A program made the translations under genes and the position numbers. Positions 3,596-20,000 of a stretch of DNA of 20,000 nucleotides are shown here, in pieces. Every line of letters starts with the position of its first letter. Position 1 is the stretch's first letter. Origin of the DNA: Theodoxus fluviatilis (lineage: Eukaryota; Mollusca; Gastropoda; Cycloneritida; Neritidae); NCBI GenBank assembly GCA_034096865.1, contig JAWQFJ010012216.1:1-20000 (forward strand), written 5' to 3'. The notes beneath the pieces are model-generated. The model saw only the letters and a list, made by a program, of their open reading frames with translations. It was not told where the DNA came from and did not search any database.

Positions 3596-3938
3596 CTAAA
3601 GCCTCACAAACTGCGTTACAATCTAGACTCTCCAGATGCTCTGTATGTTTGTCTTGCTTGTCGGGAGGAATTGGAATGTGAATTTCATATAGTGTATGCA
3701 TGCCCAGTTTATGAAGATCTTAGACAGAAATACTTTTACAATAATGCCGCCTTCAGAAATGTTGGAAATTTATTTTCCTCTAGCGATCATTATGTGATAA
3801 GATCAATTGCCATGTATTTGCATTATGCCTATAAGAAGAGGCGTGAAGCTCTGGAAAATGTATCTGCAGATAAGGTAAACATTTGGTTATTGTGAAAGGC
3901 CGGAGCCTAACAAATAAACCAGTTCGTTTGTTCGTTCC
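3596..3938 (+). pseudogene. 5'-truncated LINE: C-terminal end of ORF2 plus 3' tail
   Basis: This is a remnant of the last part of a LINE ORF2 polyprotein. About 100 codons are open from just after a TAA near 3593 to the TGA at 3893-3895. The frame contains a Cys-x2-Cys then His-x4-Cys arrangement (VCLAC, then FHIVYAC). Such a zinc-binding-like cluster is found near the C-terminus of many APE-type LINE proteins. After the stop come a short 3' UTR, an AATAAAC at about 3913-3919 and a GTTCGTTTGTTCG tail. The minus-strand LINE at 14261-17752 has the same order: Cys/His cluster, short basic end, AATAAAC, GTTC-rich tail. The two are therefore probably related families. Nothing upstream of the C-terminus is preserved, as expected of incomplete reverse transcription. 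Confidence 0.65.
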
Positions 3939-4055
3939 GTCTCTCTCTCCCCCCTCCCTCTCCCCCTTATCTCTCTCTCTTCATCCCACCCACCCACCCC
4001 CTTCTCTCTTTTCTACACCCCCCACCTTCCCCCTTACTCTCTCTCTCCCTCCATT
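3939..4055. repeat. Pyrimidine-rich low-complexity tract
   Basis: A run of CTCTCT, CCCTCC and CCCACC on the plus strand, almost free of purines, directly follows the LINE tail and directly precedes the 25-bp minisatellite. Homopurine/homopyrimidine tracts of this kind can adopt triplex DNA. I see no gene. Confidence 0.85.
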
Positions 4056-5670
4056 GGCCGAGCTACTGGAGCAGGCCCCTGACAGAGCTACTGAAGCAGT
4101 CCCCTGGCAGAACTACTGGATCAGGCCCCTGGCAGAGCTACTGGAGCAGGCCCTTGGCAGAGCTACTGGAGCAGGCCTCTGACAGAGCTACTGGAGCAGT
4201 CCCCTGGCTGAGCTACTGGAGCAGTCCCCTGGCTGAGCTACTAGAGCAGGCCCCTGGCTGAGCTACTGGAGCAGGCCCCTGGCTGAGCTACTAGAGCAGG
4301 CCCCTGGCTGAGCTACTAGAGCAGGCCCCTGGCAGAGCTACTAGAGCAGGCCCCTGGCTGAGCTACTAGACCAGGCCCCTGGCTGAGCTACTAGAGCAGG
4401 CCCCTGGCTGAGCTACTGGAGCAGGTCCCTGGCTGAGCTACTGGAGCAGGCCCCTGGCTGAGCTACTAGAGCAGGCCCCTGGCTGAGCTACTAGAGCAGG
4501 CCCCTGGCTGAGCTACTGGAGCAGGTCCCTGGCTGAGCTACTGGAGCAGGCCCCTGGCAGAGCTACTGGAGCAGGCAGCTGGCTGAGCTACTGGAGCAGG
4601 TCCCTGGCTGAGCTACTGGAGCAGGTCCCTGGCTGAGCTACTGGAGCAGGCCCCTGGCTGAGCTACTGGAGCAGGTCCCTGGCAGAGCTACTGGAGCAGG
4701 CCCCTGACTGAGCTACTGGAGCAGGCCCCTGGCAGAGCTACTGGAGCAGGCCCCTGGCTGAGCTACTGGAGCAGGCCCCTGGCTGAGCTACTGGAGCAGG
4801 CCCCTGGCTGAGCTACTGGAGCAGGCCCCTGACAGAGCTACTGGAGCAGGTCCCTGGCAGAGCTACTAGAGCAGGCCCCTGGCTGAGCTACTGGAGCAGG
4901 CCCCTGGGTAAGCTACTGGAGCAGGCCCCTGGCTGAGCTACTGGAGCAGGTCCCTGGCTGAGCTACTGGAGCAGGCCCCTGGCTGAGCTACTGGAGCAGA
5001 CCCCTGGCTGAGCTACTGGAGCAGGCCCCTGGCTGAGCTACTGGAGCAGGCCCCTGGCTGAGCTACTGGAGCAGCCCTGGCTGAGCTACTGGAGCAGGCC
5101 CTGGCTGAGCTACTGGAGCAGGCCCCTGGCTGAGCTACTGGAGCAGGCCCCTGGCTGAGCTACTGGAGCAGGCCCCTGGCTGAGCTACTGGAGCAGGCCC
5201 TGGCCGAGCTACTGGAGCAGGCCCCTGGCTGAGCTACTGGAGCAGGCCCCTGGCTGAGCTACTGGAGCAGGCCCCTGGCTGAGCTACTGGAGCAGGCCCC
5301 TGGCTGAGCTACTGGAGCAGGCCCTGGCTGAGCTACTGGAGCAGGCCCTGGCTGAGCTACTGGAGCAGGCACCTGGCTGAGCTACTGGAGCAGGCCCTGG
5401 CTGAGCTACTGGAGCAGGCCCCTGGCTGAGATACTGGAGCAGGCCCCTGGCTGAGCTACTGGAGCAGGCCCCTGGCTGAGCTACTGGAGCAGGCCCTGGC
5501 TGAGCTACTGGAGCAGGCCCCTGGCTGAGCTACTGGAGCAGGCCCCTGGCTGAGCTACTGGAGCAGGCCCCTGGCAGAGCTACTAGAGCAGGCCCCTGGC
5601 AGAGCTACTGGAGCAGACCCCTGACAGAGCATCTGGAGCAGGCCCCTGACAGAGCTACAGGAGCAGTCCC
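4056..5670. repeat. 25-bp minisatellite (about 64 copies)
   Basis: The unit is GGCTGAGCTACTGGAGCAGG followed by CCCCT. Common variants are GGCAGAGCTACT, GACAGAGCTACT, CTAGAGCAGG, and GGTCCCT for GGCCCCT. The 25-bp period is not a multiple of three and creates stops, so no long open frame arises. Units shortened by about two bases (CCCT in place of CCCCCT-type spacing) cluster in the right half, about 5070-5510. The first and last few copies are the most divergent, as is usual for minisatellites that turn over in the centre. Confidence 0.97.
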
Positions 5671-6216
5671 CAAGCCCAGCGACTCCAGCTGATAAGGTGG
5701 ACATCAACGGGCTTCTGCGTCAGAAAGCAAGCTCGAGTGACTGCACCCACAACATCTCTTTTCTCCAAATATAAGTTTAGACTTCTGTGTTATATTTTGA
5801 TGCAACTATTCTCAAGAGTTTAAGAAATACCCTGGAAGATACCAATATTGTCAAACATGTCGTGCAAAAGGATGGGAAGAGATAATACAATAACAAACAT
5901 GATCCATACTTTTTCATGCATTTAATATAAAGATGGGAAGACAGCCAGTACAGAACGTAAAAAATGCAAAGCAACTGTATGTGACCACAGATGATATCTT
6001 CGTGAGCAGCTACAAAGTACACGAATAAGTAATGATGAATGGAAAACATTTCACAAAAGCGTGCCACAAAATAAAATGTGGTTCGAGTTTCATAGAAGTA
6101 ATGCCAAAACAAATGTTAAAGTCGACATGAAAGTTAAACATTGGATTAAAAATACGTCTACGGCTTAGCAAGGGAATTGAAACTTTTCCTTGTGGTGCGT
6201 GATTTTAGCCAACGTG
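5671..6216. other. AT-rich spacer, nothing recognised
   Basis: A minus-strand open frame of 111 codons (5777-6112) is rich in Phe, Tyr and Cys, as random AT-rich frames are, and matches no family I know. I see no splice-supported exon or RNA gene. Confidence 0.5.
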
Positions 6217-7072
6217 AAGCAGTGACCTTGAAAGGTGTGCCGGTGGAGCAGTGGCCTTGAAAGGCATCCCAGTGGAGCAGTGGCCTTGAAAGGTGTGCCA
6301 GTGGAGCAGTGGCCTTGAAAGGCGTGCCAGTGGAGCAGTGGCCTTGAAAGGTGTGCCAGTGGAGCAGTGGCCTTGAAAGGCGTGCCAGTGGAGCAGTGGC
6401 CTTGAAAGGCGTGCCAGTGGAGCAGTGGCCTTGAAAGGCGTGCCAGTGGAGCAGTGGTGGAGCAGTGGCCTTGAAAGGCGTGCCAGTGGAGCAGTGGCCT
6501 TGAAAGGCGTGCCAGTGGAGCAGTGGCCTTGAAAGGCGTGCCAGTGGAGCAGTGGCCTTGAAAGGCGTGCCAGTGGAGCAGTGGCCTTGAAAGGCGTGCC
6601 AGTGGAGCAGTGGCCTTGAAAGGCGTGCCGGTGGAGCAGTGGCCTTGAAAGGCGTGCCAGTGGAGCAGTGGCCTTGAAAGGCGTGCCAGTGGAGCAGTGG
6701 CCTTGAAATGCGTGCCGGTGGAGCAGTGACCTTGAAAGGCGTGCCAGTGGAGCAGTGGCCTTGAAAGGCGTGCCAGTGGAGCAGTGGCCTTGAAAGGCGT
6801 GCCAGTGGAGCAGTGGCCTTGAAAGGCATGCCAGTGGAGCAGTGGCCTTGAAAGGCATGCCAGTGGAGCAGTGGCCTTGAAAGGTGTGCCAGTGGAGCAG
6901 TGGCCTTGAAAGGTGTGCCAGTGGAGCAGTGGCCTTGAAAGGTGTGCCAGTGGAGCAGTGGCCTTGAAAGGTGTGCCAGTGGAGCAGTGGCCTTGAAAGG
7001 TGTGCCAGTGGAGCAGTGGCCTTGAAAGGCGTGCCAGTGGAGCAGTGGCCTTGAAAGGCGTGCCGGTGGAGT
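6217..7072. repeat. 29-bp minisatellite (about 29 copies)
   Basis: The unit is GTGGCCTTGAAAGGCGTGCC followed by AGTGGAGCA, 29 bp in all. Variants are GGTGTGCC, GGCATGCC and CGGTGG. One partial unit of about 12 bp is duplicated near 6452-6462. GCCTT-GA-AAGGC inside the unit is a short self-complementary hairpin. Read on the minus strand, the unit has no stop in any frame. Because 29 is not a multiple of three, a single frame passes through all three phases and gives a 29-residue periodic translation 329 codons long (6158-7147). It lacks any recognisable domain or signal and I treat it as a by-product. Confidence 0.96.
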
Positions 7073-9840: not shown

Positions 9841-10449
9841 TCAGATCTCTTCCGATTCGACCACCATCTTGGACTTCTCCCCTGGGGGGCAGACCTGCTC
9901 GTTGGCCCCGAGTTTCTTCATGGGGATCATCTCGTGCTGCTCCTGCTGCTGCTCCTTCTTCCGGCTCTCGATCTTGGCGACTTTATCCACGAAGGGCCTC
10001 ATCTTGCAGTAGAGCAGGGCCAGGGTGACGATGGCCACGAGGGCGAGCGACCACACCAGGCTGGGGAGGACGTACGACCACATGATGAAGTCGTCGTTCA
10101 GCTCGGAGAAGTCCACGCTGCGGAAGACCTGCACGTCGTTCTGGAAGATCTCATTGTCCCCCACGATCTTCTTCATGGCGCCGTCCAGGGAGAGTCCGAG
10201 CTTCTGGTCCACCTCCCTGTACTTGGACAGGTCGACTGAAGACAGGCGCGGCTTGGGCAGCGAGATGTCCATGTCCTTGTCGAAGAGGCTGCTGCCTGTG
10301 AACTGGTCAAGGAGAGTGTGGTTCTCCAGGGTGATGAGCAGGGCCAGGTTGACGGGGTGCAGGATGGAATAGTCGCCAGAGTCATTGCAGGCCTTCACGC
10401 GCTCCGTGTAGAAGCCCTGCCCAGAGTGCAGCCGGCACTTGCAGGGAAC
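9841..10449 (-). CDS. Env/F-like membrane glycoprotein gene, last coding exon (membrane-proximal region, TM helix, tail)
   Basis: This exon encodes 202 residues and ends in TGA at 9841-9843. It opens after a strong acceptor (pyrimidine run, then TGTGCAG) at 10450-10452. It starts in phase 0, matching the donor of the exon at 12631-13459. It begins with a Cys-x-Cys pair (exon residues 3 and 5) and a further Cys at 21. The motif HPVNLALL follows at residues 31-38, then an N-x-T site at 43-45 and about 70 residues of predicted mostly helical sequence. A hydrophobic helix at about residues 123-148 (10006-10083) is the evident membrane anchor. The remaining ~54 residues are a charged Lys/Glu/Gln-rich cytoplasmic tail. 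The exon is unbroken, and its third positions are far richer in G and C than the flanking DNA. The HPVNLALL block resembles, as far as I recall, uncharacterised Env-like ORFs of invertebrate LTR elements. The F/Env-family assignment is inferred from the whole gene's layout. Confidence 0.85.
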   Translation of the reverse strand, partial: VPCKCRLHSGQGFYTERVKACNDSGDYSILHPVNLALLITLENHTLLDQFTGSSLFDKDMDISLPKPRLSSVDLSKYREVDQKLGLSLDGAMKKIVGDNEIFQNDVQVFRSVDFSELNDDFIMWSYVLPSLVWSLALVAIVTLALLYCKMRPFVDKVAKIESRKKEQQQEQHEMIPMKKLGANEQVCPPGEKSKMVVESEEI

Positions 10450-10594
10450 CTGCACAGACAAAGTCAAGCCAGGCAGCTGATAACCATGAATGAAGAGAAA
10501 AACGGCTGCTGCCGCTAGACGAGCACAAGCCAGACACATTTTAAGCATGACTGGAGGGGTGGACTGATTCGGAAATTTGCGGTTGAAAGGAAAA

Positions 10595-10850
10595 CTGGAT
10601 GAGGGTGAATCGGAAGATGGAGGAATGGATGAATTGACGGACTGATTGGAAGATGGATGAATTTATGGACAGATTGGTAGATGGATGGATGGATGGATGG
10701 ATGGATGGATGGATGGATGGATGGATGGATGGATGGATGGATGCATGGATGGATGGATGAATTAATGGACAGATTGGTGGATGAAATTGTGGACAGATTG
10801 GAGGATGGATGGATGATAAATGAATGCATAGACGGATGAACGGATGGAAA
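10595..10850. repeat. GATG/GGAT tetranucleotide microsatellite with degenerate flanks
   Basis: The core at about 10678-10762 is nearly pure ATGG repeats with a single interruption (ATGCATGG) near 10741. Imperfect copies extend on both sides to about 10595 and 10850. It yields a Ser/Ile/His/Pro-rich false frame on the minus strand. Confidence 0.95.
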
Positions 10851-10874
10851 GAACAAGAAGGGCAAACCCCATAC

Positions 10875-12153
10875 GACTCACATGCTTGAAAATGACCTAT
10901 ACATGACCTTGACCTTCAGGTGACCTTCAAGGTCAAGGTCAAACAACTAAACCTAGCAATGACATCATACACTAAGAAATGCTTTACACCTTTTCCTACC
11001 AAAATACATGTGGCCTTGAGCCAAGGTCAAGGTCATCCAGGCCATGCAACACAAATCTGTTAATTCAAGACAGGAAGCACAATGGTGCTTATTGAAACTT
11101 TCTACCATGAGATATGGTCACTTTTAGTGGGTCACTACCCCATGTTGGTCACATTTCATAAGGGTCAAAGTGACCTTGACCTTGATGATATGTGACCAAA
11201 AGTGTCTTACGATGAAAGTATAACATGTCCCCCACATAATTATTAAGTTTAAAACAGTTATCTTCCATAGTTCATGGTCAAGGTCACTTCAAAATATGTA
11301 TACAATCCAACTTTGAAGAGCTCCTGTGAACTTGACCTTGAAGCAAGGTCAACCAAACTGATATCAAAAGATACGGCTTACTTTGCCCTATATACCATAT
11401 ATAGGCGCAGTATTCAATCTCACAAACTTCAGAGAAAATTGAGAAAATGTGAAAAATGGCTGTTTTTTAGACAACATTTATGGCTCCTGCGACCTTGACC
11501 TTGAAGGAAGGTCAAGTAACTCTGTATGTTTTTTGACGCCTTGTCATCATACACCATCATGCCAGATTGGGTGTTGATAGACTTAATAGTCTCCGAGAAA
11601 AATCCTACGTTAAATTTGTTTACGGACGACAGAATGCCCGGACGCCCAGATGCCTGGACGGACAACACGGGTGACCTAGTATGAAAGTATAACATGTGTA
11701 CTACAATGTTATGAAGTTTGGAAGAGTTATCTTCCATAGTTCAGGGTCAAGGTCACTTCAAAATGTGTATACAATCCAACTTTAAAGAGCTCCTGAGACC
11801 TTGACCTTGAAGCAAGGTCAATCAAACTGGTAACAAAAGATAGGAATTATTATGCCCTATACACCATATATAGGTCAGGTATCCAATCTAAAAAACTTCA
11901 GAGAAAATTGGGGAAATGTGAAAAATTGCTGTTTTTTAGACAACATTTACGGCCCCTGCGACCTTGACCTTGAAGCAAGGTCAAGTCAATATGACTGTTT
12001 TTTGACGCCTTGTCATCATACACCATCATGCCAAATTGGATTTTGATAGACTTAATAGTGTCCAAGAAAAATCCAACGTTAAAGTTTTTTACAGACGCCA
12101 GGATGGACGACACGGGTGAGTAGATAGACTCACTTTTGCTTCGCATGTGAGTC
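10875..12153. mobile_element. Non-autonomous element with short terminal inverted repeats, terminal hairpin and internal tandem duplication
   Basis: GACTCACATGC at 10875-10885 is matched inversely by GCATGTGAGTC at 12143-12153. The right end also forms its own hairpin: GACTCAC at 12128-12134 pairs with GTGAGTC at 12147-12153. The body starts with about 330 bp rich in TGACCTTGACCTT and AAGGTCAAGGTCA. Two tandem copies of a 469-bp block follow (11211-11679 and 11680 to about 12115). There is no transposase. Short inverted ends, a 3' hairpin and a tandem-repeat core recall Helitron2/Helentron-type non-autonomous elements and the bivalve 'pearl' repeats. Without a sure target site or CTRR end, that class is only a suggestion. 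It sits inside an intron of the Env/F-like gene. Confidence 0.55.
11211..12115. repeat. 469-bp tandem duplication inside the intronic element
   Basis: Two head-to-tail copies align closely from ATGAAAGTATAACATGT (11214 and about 11682) to ACACGGGTGA (about 11665 and 12109). Landmarks such as TCTTCCATAG (11261 and 11730) and the TTGACCTT/AAGGTCAA palindromes (11332 and 11801; 11495 and 11964) are all displaced by exactly 469 bp. Matching short open frames on both strands simply reflect the duplication. They are mutated differently in each copy and do not look coding. Confidence 0.92.
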
Positions 12154-12264
12154 AAAACAAGGATGAGAAGATATGTCGTCACTGTTTCCCTATGTATTTC
12201 ACTTTTTATTAATTATGTAGGGATATGTGGTGTGTCTATTCCAACACTCCCATCCCACAGAAGG

Positions 12265-12316
<52 letters not shown>

Positions 12317-12321
12317 GCGCC

Positions 12322-12354
<33 letters not shown>

Positions 12355-12560
12355 GTTCACACATACACACACACACACACACACGTTCGCACACACATAC
12401 ACACACAGACAAATACACACACACACGTTCGCACACACATACACACACACACGTTCACACACACACATACACACACACACGTTCACACACACATATACAC
12501 ACACACACGTTCGCACACACACGTTCGCACACACATACACACACACGCACACACACACAC
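12265..12560. repeat. CA microsatellite with CG core, grading into a CACGTTC-containing minisatellite
   Basis: Pure CA repeats at 12265-12313 are followed by an alternating CGCGCGCCCGCGCGCGC block (about 12314-12330) and more CA. From about 12354, TCACACATAC / ACGTTCGCACAC modules recur at roughly 30-bp spacing. Alternating purine-pyrimidine sequence of this length is prone to Z-DNA. Both strands are open in all frames, which explains several His/Thr- or Cys/Val-rich false frames here. Confidence 0.97.
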
Positions 12561-12630
12561 TCTTAACACCTGGAGAGAGCAACAAGTGGGGCCAAGCTAA
12601 GGACGGACACAGACACAGAGAGTGACTGAC

Positions 12631-13459
12631 CGTGACGAGGCAGAGGTCACACGAGGGCAGCTGCTTCAGGCCGGCGTGGCAGTCCAGGTAGGGGCGGGTG
12701 GCGTTGCTGAGAAGGACGCGACTGGGCTCCACCTCCAGCATGAACTCCTGCAGCGAGTTGGGGAAGAACTTGAACTGGCACTGCTCCCGCACCATGTCCT
12801 TGTGGTCAGTGTAGATGCCCAGCATGCACGACGGGACGCTGGCCTTGACCTCCGCCCTCATCCCAGGGCAAATGTCGTCACGGCACTGGGAGGGGTCGTA
12901 GTCCTCCAGCTCCATGTAGTACTGGGCGTCCCTGGTCACAGCGAAGTACCTGGGCAGGTTCGTCACCTGGGTGCTGTGGCCCGTGCTCTGCCCGTAGGGC
13001 GAGGGGACCACGGTCACCCGGTACACGTCGAAGTAGCGAGGTTTGATGCTTGTGACGGGCGCGTTCAGCAAGATGGCGACGTGGTCCTCTCCCTTTGCGT
13101 CCTTGGCCAGGAAGGCGTGGGCAGCGTACACGTGGTAGTAGTACAGGGGGTTGCGCTCCTTCAACTCGTACTGGCCGTAGAAGCTGTTCACCTTCCTCTC
13201 CAGCACGTCCAGAGTACTCTGCAGCACGTGTGGGGCCACAAAGAAGCGGGACAGACGTCCCATGGACAGCGTGCGGACAGCCACCCGGAAGTCGTTCACC
13301 AGCATGCGCGCCATCCACAGCGTCCGCGACTGGACAGCCACGAACATGGCCGAGTCCACACTGAGCTGGCCAGAGTGCTCCTCGGCCTTCCGCAGGGTGT
13401 CGTACTTGAAGATCATCTGGCGGTACAGCTCCCCCATCTCGTCCTGGAAGCTGTCGAAC
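12631..13459 (-). CDS. Env/F-like membrane glycoprotein gene, central exon (fusion-subunit core and Cys-rich region)
   Basis: This 829-nt exon is one nucleotide plus 276 codons. The acceptor is a strong pyrimidine stretch ending GTCCTCAG (13460-13467), and the donor is ACG|GTCAGT. The one-nucleotide start completes the two-nucleotide end of the exon at 19437-19596, so the phases agree. It begins with helical, heptad-like sequence. At residues 67-80 comes GRLSRFFVAPHVLQ, which fits the conserved G-x-LS-x-x-x-V-(S/A)-P pattern of baculovirus F-like and errantivirus Env-like fusion subunits. Then come a YYY block (106-108), STQVTNLPRYFAV (162-174) and seven cysteines at 192, 197, 211, 227, 260, 270 and 273. 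There is one N-x-T site (252-254). Such an order (helix, core, dense cysteines) is typical of the family. The minus frame stays open past both splice sites only because the flanking repeats lack stops. The exon is intact and GC3-rich. The family call rests on pattern recognition, not on a search. Confidence 0.85.
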
Positions 13460-13602
13460 CTGAGGACAGCACGGGGAGGAAGGGACTTGATAAGTGGTTC
13501 TCCAGTATATTTCAAAACGGTTTCCTTCTCCATATCATTTCCTTCTTTTAAAATTATCACACTAATAGATGACATAAAGAAAAATGCACACCAAGATAAG
13601 GC

Positions 13603-14258
13603 TATACCAACACCACACCACATACCAAAACCGCACCACCATACCAACATCACACCACATACCAACACCACACCACCATACCAACATCACACCACATACC
13701 AACACCACACCACCATACTAACACCACACCACCATACCAACACCACACCACATACCAACACCACACCACCATACCAACACCACACCATCATACCAACACC
13801 ACATCACCATACCAACACAACAACACACCACCATACCAACATCACACCACATACCAACACCACACCACCATACCAACACCACACAACAATACCAACACCA
13901 CACCACCATACCAACACCACACCACATACAACACCACACCACCATACCAACACCACACCACATACCAACACCACACCCCCATACTAACAGCACACCACCA
14001 TACCAACACCACACCACAATACCAACACCACACCACAATACCAACACCACACCACCATACCAACACCACACCACATACCAACACCACACCACCATACCAA
14101 CACCACACCCCCATATCAACACCACACCATCATACCAACACCACACCACCATACCAACACAACAACACACCACCATACCAACACCACACCATCATACCAA
14201 CACCACACCACCATACCAACACAACAACACACCACCACACCACGACAATACCACGCCA
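13603..14258. repeat. CACCAC/ATACCAACAC satellite, left block
   Basis: The units are 17-19 bp, such as ATACCAACACCACACCACC with a CACATACC variant, about 35 copies. The plus strand is almost free of G. The last ~30 bp switch to CCACGACAATACCAC, a variant common at the start of the right block. This fits one original array later split by the LINE. Confidence 0.95.
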
Positions 14259-14260
14259 CT

Positions 14261-17200
14261 ATAAAGAACAGAACAGAACAGTTTATTAGTGAAAGGCCAT
14301 TTGGTCATTACAAAGGGGGGATTCATACATATACAAGACAAACTAATATGGATTAATTCATGGGCACTGCGGGTGTAGCATTAGTGTCAAAGTCAGTTTA
14401 GTTTCTTCTCCGTTTCAGTGCTTTTTAAATGAACCAAGCAAGCGAACGACTTTTGGTGCCTGTGTACTTCATGACTTGTTGATAAAATATGGCCTGAAAT
14501 AATCATATTCATGACATGCAAATAAAAGATGCTCCTCGTTCTCCATTTGCCCACAGAATGGGCAAGATAAGATATTGTTATCAGCGATTGCGGTGTATCT
14601 CTTTGCATGACAGTTTATTTCACTAACGCCCATTCTAAATCTTGCATAGGATGCTCTAGCAGGCATGAGCAGACTTTGCAGATAAGATTCCATATCATGG
14701 TTTGGTTTAAATAGGAAGTACTTGCTTAGTCGGCTGCTTTCTTTTACAGATGATGCCCAAGCCTGTTTATAACAATCTTTTAGTCGCTGTTCTGGCTCAC
14801 ATAGAAAGAGTTTCCTACATCCAACTCCTTGATTGTACCAAGCCTCTCCAGACTCATAACTGCTTAGCAATTGTTTCATTCTGAGGGCCCAGCATGGCAC
14901 ATTCTTGTCAGCTAGGTCTAGAGACATAGCATAACCTTTTCTCGGCAGTCTATCGCTTTCCAGTGTCTGTAGTTTCAACCAGTATCGTACAGCTCTGAAA
15001 GACGTAACTACGTATAAAGGGATTCTGCCCAAGTCCCCCAAAACTGCGTTGTTTGGTGTACTTATAGTCAAACCTAGAAAACGATTGAAAGCAAACATAT
15101 GGACTCGTTCAATTACATCAGCTTTCTGCATTTCCATACTTCACTAGCATAGCATAGCGTACTCTGTACCTGGGTATCCCAAAATTTAGTAAAGACGTCG
15201 ATGTTGCAGCACTTTATACATGATAACACTTTCAAACTATTGATAACTTTGCTTTTGGCCGTCACAGCTATATTTTTCAGCGACACACTGACACTTACCT
15301 TTGTAGTGAGCACAAGTGCAAGATAGTTCTACGAGTTTTTTGTCTAAACGTAAGTACCCGCGTAAAGCCACTTTTCGTGTTTCTTCATGGGACCTCCTTT
15401 TCTAAATACTACTATATTAGTTTTCTGCAAATTCACTGTTAGGCATAGTTTTCTAGATTCTTGTTCTAGGGTATTTAATAGTTTATGTAGGCCTAGTGCT
15501 GTGTTTGAGAGAAGGATAAGGTCATCTGCAAACAACAACAAAAATAACTCTTGATCGTTTGGATTGAGTTGTACTCCATGCTTCCCTTGCTGAATTACTT
15601 CTTTGCCGAGCTCGTTAATAAAAAGGAAAAAAGAATCGTGCTGGTATTTTCTCCTTGCTTTAGGCCCGAAGGGCACGTAAACGACTTCGACAGGGTCCCG
15701 TTTACTCTTACGGTGGCTCTTACAGATCTGTAAATTGATTTCAATGCAGTCAACATTTTCCTTTTTACCCCGTTTTGTATAAAATGCTCCACAACATGAC
15801 TCTATTAACATAATCAAAGGCTTTCTTAATATCTACGAAGGCTACATACAGACGTACCTTCCTTTTGAACATATATTTTTCTACTAAATTGAATAGAACA
15901 AAAATGTGGTCCACATTCGAATAGTTTCTTCGAAATCCAGTCTGTTCTTCTAATATTTTATCATTGCTTCGGCTCACTGCTCGAGACGTTTACTTAGAAG
16001 AGAAGTGTAACACTTGCTTACGGTGCACAACAGAGCTATTCCTCTATAGTTATCTGGATCATCTTTCTCCCCCTTCTTGTGGATTGGTGCAAATATCGAC
16101 GTGCACCATATCTCTGGGAAGTGACCACTTACAAACAATCTGTTTAAAAGATCAACCAGAAATGTCATGGCTAATTTGCCAGCCGTTTTAAGCATTTCAA
16201 TCGCAACACCGTCTATCCCTGCTGCTTTGCCATTGTTGCTCCTTCTGATAGAATCCATAACCTCTTGCTCTGTTATTTCACAGTCTAGTGTGTTGTCACG
16301 TATTTCTGTGTACTCGCAATCATCAATCATGTCGATTTGTCGCGACTGAAAAACTTCCTTAAATTGCGCGACCCACTGGTCTTAAGTTACGTTACTAAAT
16401 CTACTTTGTCGGAATGATAAATGACGTATTTCCCTCCAGAATTGTTTGGGCTTGCTGCAGTTATTGACCAAATTTTCTGTTTTATGCAAACTGTAGATTT
16501 TCCGTTTACTACCTAAGGTTTTCTTGTATTCTTTACGCAGGTTTGTGTACGATTCTCTGTCGCTTTTCAATCCTGATTTTCTGTACTTACGTAACGTCTG
16601 CCTCACTTCCCTTCTCTTTTTTGGTACTCCCCATCGAACCATCTTGGACGAGTGGTGTGTTTTTTCCGATTTACAATACGTTTATGCATACATATACCCG
16701 CGTCTCGAATGCAGTTGATAAAGCAAGATAAGGCTGCCTCTGTATCAGTTGTTAGTAGAGATTTCGCCTTCTCTATTCTATCGATTCATCAGATTTTATT
16801 TGGCTGGAAAATTCTTCTGTTTTATAATCATCCCATCTAATAAATTCATATATTTGCACTTTAATTTCGTCAGACTGTTTATCGCGCCGATGACAGTTTA
16901 ACAATACTTCCAAGGGCATATGCGCCTACTCAATTCTAGATCTCATCTCCAGATCTAAATTCACAAATTGGTCTCGTAGGTCAACAGCCATTAGGGCATA
17001 GTCGATCGAGCTGCAACCTTGGTCAGACAAGTAGGTAAATTCTACTTTCCTATCACCCGTACACGCTCCATTTTTTATTTCTAACCCATAAACCTGACAT
17101 AAGTCAATGAGTTCCCGTCCAAAACGGTTAAATATGTTATCTTTCGCCTGTCTTAAAAAGTGAACTTCATAATCATTGTCAATTTAGGAAGGATTATTAT

Positions 17201-17752
17201 AAGCACTTACATATGATAGTGTCAGTATATTTCTATTTGATGTTCTGGCATTCAGATCGCCCATGATAAACATACAAATATCTCCAAATTCATCTACTAG
17301 ATTCAAAATGCATTGTTCCAGTAGAACTATGTTACAATTGTAGTCTTTATCCCTGTAATACGGTGAACCCTCAGGAGGTATGTATGTCACAATCATGAAG
17401 ATGTCGTGCCGAGTGAACAGGAATTGTTTCGAAATCTTGCAGATAATGATATTGGATGACTTGTTTGAAGAATTTACTCTTTTCTTTCCTAATAAGCATA
17501 ATTACTCCTCCTGAGCGTCTTCCGCTTCTAGACAGCTTGATAGCAGTATTAATATTGCAACATTACTCGGGGAACTTGTAACTACATTCAAAATTATCCA
17601 AAACGTTTATATTAAACAGATCACATCAAAGCAATGTACACAGCTAATGAATTCGCCATCACCGAGATGGCTAGTAATCCACAAACGTTCCAACTTATCA
17701 GTTTTAGCTCATTTTCTTTTCAGCAGCTCTGGGCCTGGCCGATTTCTTATCG
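14261..17752 (-). mobile_element. Decayed APE-type LINE retrotransposon (about 3.5 kb), inserted in the satellite
   Basis: Read on the minus strand, the element runs from an endonuclease start near 17700 to a 3' tail at about 14261-14287. The tail consists of AATAAAC followed by GTTCT repeats, at the plus-strand words GTTTATT and GAACAGAACAGAACAG. It carries endonuclease, reverse transcriptase and a C-terminal Cys/His cluster in the normal order. No ORF1 is visible, because the 5' side passes into satellite almost at the beginning of ORF2. Satellite of the same kind lies on both sides. I could not define a target-site duplication in such repetitive flanks. The clade is uncertain (I/Nimb-like or RTE-X-like by general appearance). 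The short-repeat 3' tail instead of poly(A) is seen in several LINE clades. Confidence 0.88.
14393..17703 (-). pseudogene. LINE ORF2 (endonuclease-reverse transcriptase), broken by stops and frameshifts
   Basis: The domains appear in order on the minus strand. SWNVCGL near 17676-17696 is the start of an APE endonuclease. GDLNAR (17244-17261) is its catalytic Asp/Asn motif. IDYALMAV near 17000 belongs to the late endonuclease region, and the usual closing SDH was not found. The RT begins with KAAGIDGVAIEML (near 16215-16255) and HKKGEKDDPDNYRGI (near 16030-16080). The catalytic motif AFVDIKKAFD follows at about 15813-15842, then GLKQG near 15655 and FADD at 15521-15532. The C-terminal Cys-x2-Cys...His-x4-Cys cluster is near 14512-14568. 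The frame is interrupted many times: by several stops between 17400 and 17680, by shifts around 16650-17180, 15975, 15790 and 15340, and by one near 14470 that displaces the basic C-terminus. The copy cannot make a full protein. Confidence 0.88.
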
Positions 17753-19377
17753 CACCACCATACCAACACCACACCACCACATACCACACCACCATACCAA
17801 CAGCACACCACCCCACCACGACAATACCACACCACCACACCACGACAACAACACACCACCACACCACACCACGACAATACCACACCACCATACCACGACC
17901 ACACCACACCACTACACTACGACAACAACACACCACCACACCACGACAATACCACAGCACCATACCACGACCACACCACACCACCACACCACGATAACCC
18001 CACACCACCACACCACGACAATACCACAACACCATACCACGACAATACCACACCACCACACCAACATCACACCATGACAATACCACACCACCACACCACG
18101 ACAATACCACACTACAATACCAACACCACACCACACCAACACCACACCACACCACCACCACACCACACCACCCCACCGCCATACCACCCCACCACACCGC
18201 ATAACACAATCATACCACACCATACCACACCATACAACACCACCATACCACAACACACCACACCACCATACCACAACACACCACACCACCATACCACAAC
18301 ACACCACACCACCATACCACAACATACCACACCACCATACCACAACACACCACACTATCATACCACAACACACCACACTATAATACCACAACACACCACA
18401 CTATCATACCACACAACCCCACCACACCACAACACCATGCCATACCACACCATCATACCACGCCATTCCACAACAAAATACCACGCCATTCCACATCACA
18501 ATACCACGCCTTTCCACACCACCATACCACACCACCATTCCACACGACCACACCACACCACACCACCATACCACATCACACCACACCACCATACCACATC
18601 TCACCACACCACCATACCACATCTCACCACACCACCATATTACGCCATACCACACCACACCACCATACACCACCATACAACACCACCATACCACATCACC
18701 ATACCACACCACCTCACCACACCATGCCAATCCGCTTCACCATACACCACCATACAACACCACCATACCACATCTCACCACACCACCATACCACATCTCA
18801 CCACACCACCATATAACGCCATACCACACCACACCACCATACACCACCATACAACACCACCATACCATACCACACCACCACACCACATCACAGCACACCA
18901 TCATACCACACCACACCACCATACACCACCATACAACACCACAATACCACACCACCACACCACATCACAACACACCATCATACCACACCACACCACCATA
19001 CCATGCCATACCACACCACCACACCACATCACAGCACACCATCATACCACACCACACCACCATACACCACCATACAACACCACCATACCAAACCACACCA
19101 CCACACCACATCACAGCACACCATCATACCACACCACACCACCATACACCACCATACAACACCATCATACCACACCACACCACACCACCACATCACAGCA
19201 CATCATCATACCACACCACACCACCATACCATGCCGTACCATACCACTACACCACACCACACCACCATACCACACCATACCACTACACCACAGCACACGA
19301 TCATACCACAGCATACCACACCACCATACCACACCACCATACCACACCATGTCAATACCACTCCACCACACCACACC
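17753..19377. repeat. CACCAC/ATACCAC satellite, right block, with higher-order structure
   Basis: This is 1.6 kb of plus-strand sequence made almost only of C, A and T. The basic modules are CCACGACAATACCAC near 17800-18110, then ACCACCATACCACAACACAC (about 23 bp) near 18240-18400, then longer composite units. A CACAGCACACCATCAT-type landmark recurs at about 18892, 18967, 19032, 19113 and 19196 (65-83 bp apart). An ATCTCACCACACCACC landmark pair recurs near 18600 and 18775. It generates a 457-codon His/Pro/Thr-rich frame on the plus strand and Trp/Val/Cys/Gly-rich frames on the minus strand, all by-products. Confidence 0.95.
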
Positions 19378-19436
19378 TTGGTCTAGGCAAGCATGCGGGC
19401 AGAGATGGACAGAGACAGGCGGGGAGATATGCCTAC

Positions 19437-19596
19437 CTTTTCTGTGACACTTTCTGGATTTCCTGCAGGAACCTGGTGTTTGCAGCAATGGTGTCACTGA
19501 GGTTGCCCACCTTCTGTTGATAGGCAGCCACGATGTCCAGTATCTTGTCGTTTTCCAGAGTGGATCCCGAGCCAAATAGGAACTTCCCAATCACCC
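19437..19596 (-). CDS. Env/F-like membrane glycoprotein gene, upstream exon (hydrophobic Gly-rich segment and heptad repeat)
   Basis: This 160-nt exon is two nucleotides, 52 codons and two nucleotides. The acceptor is a run of ten T followed by ACAATGACAG; the donor is AAAAG|GTAGGC. It opens with a short hydrophobic glycine-containing stretch with an LFG triplet (exon codons 1-8). About 35 residues of heptad-patterned helix follow, with L, I, V and A at a/d-like positions and one N-x-S site. A hydrophobic G-x-x-x-LFG segment before a coiled coil is what baculovirus F-like and errantivirus Env-like proteins show at the start of their membrane-fusion subunit, just after the cleavage site. That is family knowledge applied to a short exon. 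The outgoing phase (2) fits the incoming phase of 12631-13459. The receptor-binding part and signal peptide are not present here and would lie upstream or be missing. Confidence 0.75.
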
Positions 19597-19829
19597 CTGT
19601 CATTGTAAAAAAAAAAGCTGGTTAAATGCCGTCCTTATCACACCACAAGAAAACTGATGTTCTCCAGCTGACTGCCACCTCTGCGTGACGTAGAACGAAA
19701 GCTAACAACACAGGGCTGCAGCCAGCATTACATCCCACGTGTCAAGATATTCAAATAAGGGGATGTTCCAAGATGACAAAAGTAATATTTTTCTTCTTCA
19801 CATTTTTAAGTTAAGATGTACGCACTCAC
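19597..19829 (-). other. Short putative intron (233 bp), only if the 19830-19944 exon is real
   Basis: It is bounded by GTGAGT (minus strand, 19824-19829) and the T-rich acceptor CAG (19597-19599). No other content is recognised. The acceptor side is well supported and the donor side is tentative. Confidence 0.35.
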
Positions 19830-19944
19830 TCCTCCCGGCAGTGCCAGAGCCTCTGCAGTTGGGAGGCCCGGCTGGGAATTTCCTGCCTGCCATGACCGGT
19901 GTGACATCGCCGATGGTAACTTCATCGCGCATGGTTCTGCGCAT
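19830..19944 (-). CDS. Possible first coding exon of the Env/F-like gene (tentative)
   Basis: On the minus strand an ATG at 19942-19944, preceded in frame by TGA two codons earlier, opens 38 codons plus one nucleotide. It ends at a good donor (GGA|GTGAGT). The single leftover nucleotide is the phase required by the two-nucleotide start of the next exon. A second in-frame ATG lies four codons on. The translation is Arg-, Gly- and Pro-rich with no signal peptide and no similarity I recognise. If genuine, the product would lack the usual surface subunit and its ER targeting. The agreement of phase has a one-in-three chance of being accidental. The sequence could equally be a dispersed repeat or a 5' untranslated/promoter stretch, since it contains a TGCGCATGCG word like an NRF1 site (about 19938-19947). 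Confidence 0.3.
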
Positions 19945-20000
19945 GCGTCAAAGCCGAAAGTGAGGCGTGTATCGCGCCTTGTTCAAAGGTGATGTGCCGC

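Follow-up and report, generated by a model that had tools for sequence, protein, structure and literature searches.

Three minus-strand exons with F-type envelope fusion-subunit features, a candidate captured host gene in Theodoxus fluviatilis

The first 20,000 nucleotides of contig JAWQFJ010012216.1 from the gastropod Theodoxus fluviatilis (assembly GCA_034096865.1; this whole stretch is hereafter called the window) were analyzed for a candidate fusion-glycoprotein gene related to F-type envelope (Env) proteins, i.e., baculovirus F and errantivirus Env. An original prediction, derived from the letters of the DNA, had placed three exons with GT/AG borders and agreeing phases on the minus strand, and this layout was borne out with the same outer limits (9841 and 19596). 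Exon 1 has 160 nt, of which the first 2 belong to a split codon and the last 2 are left over; exon 2 has 829 nt, with 1 nt at its start and phase 0 at its end; and exon 3 has 609 nt, stop included. Both junctions combine GT/AG borders with compatible phases. Splice sites were scored with a generic matrix against a background of the 1065 AG and 1577 GT sites of the minus strand. Four of the five borders ranked high, namely the acceptors of exons 1, 2 and 3 (4, 13 and 9 among the AG sites) and the donor of exon 1 (5 among the GT sites), with the donor of exon 2 as the exception. Splicing at both junctions is predicted from the sequence.

The coding signal is far above chance in exons 2 and 3 and modest in exon 1. 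When each exon was subjected to 2000 dinucleotide shuffles, the frame stayed open in none of those of exon 2, 6 of those of exon 3 and 265 of those of exon 1, so that the open frame of exon 1 by itself says little. The GC content of third codon positions (GC3) was 0.91 in both exon 2 and exon 3, a value that no shuffle of either attained, and 0.65 in exon 1 (attained by 7/2000), while the overall GC content of three non-exon stretches was 0.42, 0.40 and 0.39. The open frame and GC-rich third positions described in the original prediction were confirmed, and the gaps between the frames, the predicted introns, measure 5977 and 2181 bp.

Membership of a family was pointed to by exon 2, which matched the Pfam family Baculo_F (PF12259) with E=1.4e-4 and 21.0 bits. 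Baculo_F was the sole family listed for this exon, both at E up to 1 and at E up to 10. Among the control peptides (four shuffles and the reversal of exon 2) none matched Baculo_F, and their best match to any family had E=0.062. Searches of PHROGs and NCBIfam with the exons gave no useful match, those of PDB sequences with each exon returned chance matches only, and Rfam and tRNA scans found none. The assignment to the F-type (Baculo_F) family is probably right.

The anatomy of the translated exons follows the same direction. A fusion-peptide consensus, GxxxxxGxxxKxxxGxxDxxD, is given in PMC6085415, and the start of exon 1 agrees with its Gly-Lys-Gly spacing. The pattern GxxxKxxxGxx[DESTN], which carries one loosened extra position, occurs once among the 39,996 six-frame residues of the window, and this occurrence is at the start of exon 1; because the codon is split by the junction, the first Gly is sure only if position 19596 is unspliced or if G is the last base of the exon upstream. 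This segment is immediately followed by a predicted continuous helix, modeled with a predicted local distance difference test (pLDDT) of up to 98, and heptad regularity at the start of exon 2 was matched by 64/5000 shuffles. Ten cysteines (seven in exon 2 and three in exon 3) precede a transmembrane segment of 19 residues, and four N-glycosylation motifs are present. This segment, in exon 3, is the single strongly hydrophobic one, the hydropathy maxima of exons 1, 2 and 3 being 0.58, 0.97 and 2.35. The ten or so clustered cysteines and the transmembrane helix claimed originally are therefore present, and the claimed order of Gly/LFG segment, core, cysteines, transmembrane segment and basic tail stands. 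The coordinates of all these features are collected in Table 1.

Table 1. Features of the candidate gene and its introns in the 20,000-nucleotide window.
Feature	Position	Strand	Basis
Exon 1, likely an internal exon (start resembling a fusion peptide, then long helix)	19437..19596	-	splice ranks, phases
Exon 2 (fusion-subunit core, seven cysteines)	12631..13459	-	open frame, GC3, acceptor rank
Exon 3 (cysteine motif and transmembrane segment, followed by tail and stop)	9841..10449	-	open frame, GC3, acceptor rank
Predicted intron 1, 5977 bp	13460..19436	-	GT/AG borders, phase match
Predicted intron 2, 2181 bp	10450..12630	-	GT/AG borders, phase 0/0
Fusion-peptide-like segment (split Gly codon, then VIGKFLFG)	19571..19596	-	pattern scan, published consensus
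Predicted continuous helix, exon 1 residues 12-50	19445..19561	-	AlphaFold2 model of exon 1 by itself, block pLDDT up to 98
Match to Baculo_F (exon 2 residues 50-228, profile positions 228-405 of 609)	12775..13311	-	Pfam, E=1.4e-4
Transmembrane segment, exon 3 residues 127-145	10015..10071	-	mean hydropathy 2.35
Tail beyond transmembrane segment, basic at start	9844..10014	-	sequence
Decayed retrotransposon in intron 1, probably non-LTR, limits approximate	14290..17700	-	RVT_1 and weak side matches
Possible upstream exon or 5' leader, weak	19830..19951	-	donor at 19830, frame-compatible

Genes of retroelements were sought with Pfam in 17 non-exon stretches, of 114 open frames of at least 60 residues. 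In these stretches neither gag nor integrase was found, and the only reverse transcriptase was an RVT_1 match inside intron 1 (15344-15832, E=7.2e-8, above the cut-off). Weak sub-threshold matches to zf-RVT and Exo_endo_phos_2, one on each side of RVT_1, suggest an element without long terminal repeats (LTRs). Its pieces lie on the same strand as the gene, change frame and contain stops, and the element sits between two GGTGT-type microsatellite arrays. After masking of arrays, which left 11,833 bases for the repeat comparison, no LTR-like pair flanking the gene was detected in the window. The original prediction had seen no retroelement neighbors; an LTR pair, integrase and gag were likewise not found in what was searched, and the decayed reverse-transcriptase element lies in intron 1. 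The presence of this element implies that the split of the gene is probably old. Likewise, exons that are open around a passenger that has decayed argue for an old intron in a gene that was kept, short of proving selection.

The array-masked window also held a direct repeat pair in intron 2 (11212-11636 and 11681-12105, 425 bp, 87% identical), accompanied by short pieces related to it, and a single inverted pair of 39 bases. The repeat stretch of intron 2 abounds in CAAGGTCA-like motifs, which are common in mollusc genomes. Three large tandem arrays were observed elsewhere, at 1-2379 (21 bp x 113.6), 4055-5671 (25 bp x 65.0) and 6214-7071 (29 bp x 29.2). An open frame on the plus strand (3596-3895) looks by eye like a cysteine/histidine tail belonging to a further non-LTR element; in Pfam it gave one unrelated sub-threshold match only.

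At its 5' side the gene likely extends beyond exon 1, because this exon opens mid-codon at a strong acceptor, and any N-terminal half would lie upstream, probably for the most part outside the window. The word "intact" in the original prediction is consequently unsupported: what the window contains is the fusion-subunit part alone, and no signal peptide, cleavage site or receptor-binding half can be made out there. A start of exon 1 at the ATG at 19603 was also considered; an internal exon is likelier, because a strong acceptor lies just downstream of that ATG and no signal peptide accompanies it. The donor of the possible upstream exon ranks 63 of 1577 GT sites and is in frame with exon 1, as would be expected by chance in one case out of three. 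Within that frame the sole RxxR-like stretch lies >30 residues ahead of the join, and no signal peptide was recognized by eye. The cleavage site is likely to be located in an upstream exon outside our view. Upstream of exon 1 we also observed GCATGCGCA at 19938-19946 on the minus strand, which we take to resemble the site bound by the transcription factor NRF1; this short match could mark a promoter or be due to chance.

Taken together, the successive traits of an F-type (baculovirus F/errantivirus) Env fusion subunit are encoded in these three exon-like frames, which are likely the 3' part of a host gene derived from a captured viral envelope gene. Capture is favored because the introns are kilobase-sized, the exons are open with a GC3 of 0.91 in exons 2 and 3, the retrotransposon in intron 1 has decayed, and neither an LTR pair nor integrase was found where they were sought. 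Host capture, as proposed originally, is supported in this way by the introns, the open frames and the decayed element, but not proved; both the capture and a function in the host are inferred.

Several results weigh against this interpretation. The donor of exon 2 ranks only 109 among the GT sites, and the Baculo_F score of exon 2 is under the curated cut-off of 24.1 bits. Exon 1 matched no Pfam family and exon 3 gave one unrelated sub-threshold match (E=0.068). The family named in the original prediction is backed by the exon 2 match, sub-threshold in bits, and by the motif order. Both Asp positions of the published consensus (PMC6085415) are Ser and Glu in exon 1, and the leading Gly of that consensus falls outside the exon. 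The heptad repeat of the original prediction was not confirmed in exon 1, where the regularity is weak and was matched by 332/5000 shuffles. Structural modeling of the transmembrane subunit, which had been put forward with that prediction, succeeded for the exon 1 helix, but the alignment-free prediction of exon 2 gave no usable fold (pLDDT 29.7). In the 400 bp left upstream of exon 1, neither a signal peptide (by eye) nor an RxxR/furin-type cleavage site beside the join was present. Finally, no relative was retrieved when the regions of exons 2 and 3 served as protein queries (0/391, 0/568 and 0/235 candidates at E 0.01, 1 and 10), nor in scans of viral contigs with each exon, although distant relatives may escape both kinds of search because exact shared words are required.

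A degenerate motif scan of the viral contigs returned three loci, which were judged by eye and not by family search. One of them has the eight motif residues within an open frame of >1,680 residues, and the other two have the motif on the strand opposite a proline-rich open frame; none looks like a fusion glycoprotein, and all three were set aside.

Other explanations of the locus have to be weighed against a captured envelope. The exons could be env sequence from an old Ty3/gypsy element with an envelope, or from another viral insert, with later insertions that mimic introns and with no function in the host. According to PMC13172572 and PMC12859917, envelope-carrying gypsy elements are widespread in animals, cnidarians, ctenophores and tunicates among them; repeats abound in the region and its upstream side lies outside the window. 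Nevertheless, both interruptions occur at GT/AG borders with matching phases, no LTR-like pair flanking the gene turned up in the window and no integrase in the 17 stretches searched, and the exons are open whereas the element in intron 1 has decayed, all of which make this explanation unlikely. The locus might instead be the relic of a gene, captured or ancient, whose frames are open by chance or because its loss is recent; this would fit the unseen N-terminal half and the ease with which shuffles of exon 1 remain open. We regard a relic as quite unlikely in view of exons 2 and 3, for which open shuffles were absent or rare and GC3 is high.

The direction of transfer could also be the reverse, the F genes of viruses having been acquired from an ancient family of cellular fusogens. 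An intron-rich structure and the lack of close viral relatives in our searches speak for such a host-to-virus transfer, but cellular relatives were not found either, in searches that reach close relatives only, and the literature found does not suggest this direction, so that we hold it to be quite improbable. Lastly, an unrelated membrane glycoprotein might resemble Baculo_F by chance, as the sub-threshold Pfam score and the unmatched exons 1 and 3 would allow. Such a coincidence is highly improbable, given the distance between the E value of exon 2 and the best one of its control peptides, none of which matched Baculo_F, and the independent agreement of motif, helix, cysteines and anchor in their order.

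If the locus is a captured envelope gene, its product is predicted to be a membrane-anchored, probably trimeric glycoprotein at the surface. The start of exon 1 would act as fusion peptide, the long helix that follows would serve as a refolding rod, exon 3 would supply the anchor with its transmembrane helix, and two membranes would be drawn together by class I membrane fusion, as predicted from this anatomy. For the putative role in the animal, cell-cell fusion would be our choice; interference with env-carrying retroelements would be the alternative. A bolder proposal, which we consider rather unlikely, sees in the locus an invertebrate counterpart to the syncytins: a baculovirus F-class fusogen with introns, retained for long by an animal outside the insects to fuse its cells or gametes, and of an age sufficient for kilobase introns to arise and gather a dead retrotransposon. 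Since F-type envelopes have been reported in retroelements across animal phyla, host genes derived from them may be expected there as well. Among the matches listed in the literature that we searched, the scope of which left out most subscription journals, no F-type env-derived host gene outside insects appeared; the single example that we can name is the insect gene Iris. Outside insects, an F-like gene that is open and split by introns would, if true, have a capture datable by its introns, and would provide, for a little-studied group of animals, a definite candidate for antiviral interference or cell fusion.

Among known systems, errantivirus Env is related to baculovirus F, and the furin site, fusion peptide, transmembrane domain and cysteines are among the most conserved Env motifs, as stated in PMC12992720 and PMC4276936. 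PF12259 (then DUF3609) figures, with Nasonia vitripennis, in a table of insect protein-family expansions in PMC4528696. On the one hand, the present gene resembles errantivirus Env, as a probable member of the F-type class, by its counterparts of the fusion peptide, transmembrane domain and cysteines (PMC12992720). On the other hand, it differs from errantiviruses by the introns within its fusion-subunit part and in that no LTR pair, gag or integrase was found in the window. It is like the fusion subunit of baculovirus F in that exon 2 matches profile positions 228-405 and in the succession of fusion-peptide-like start, helix, cysteines, transmembrane segment and tail; it is unlike baculovirus F in having two inferred introns and a score under the Baculo_F cut-off, and in that the window showed neither a furin site nor a signal peptide nor an N-terminal subunit. 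Drosophila Iris, an env-derived host gene related to F-type Env, and the mammalian syncytins, captured envelopes of different envelope families that are kept by the host and share class I fusion, are likened to it by kind. On our best reading, and by analogy, the gene of Theodoxus fluviatilis would join this known kind of env-derived host genes, together with Iris and the syncytins.
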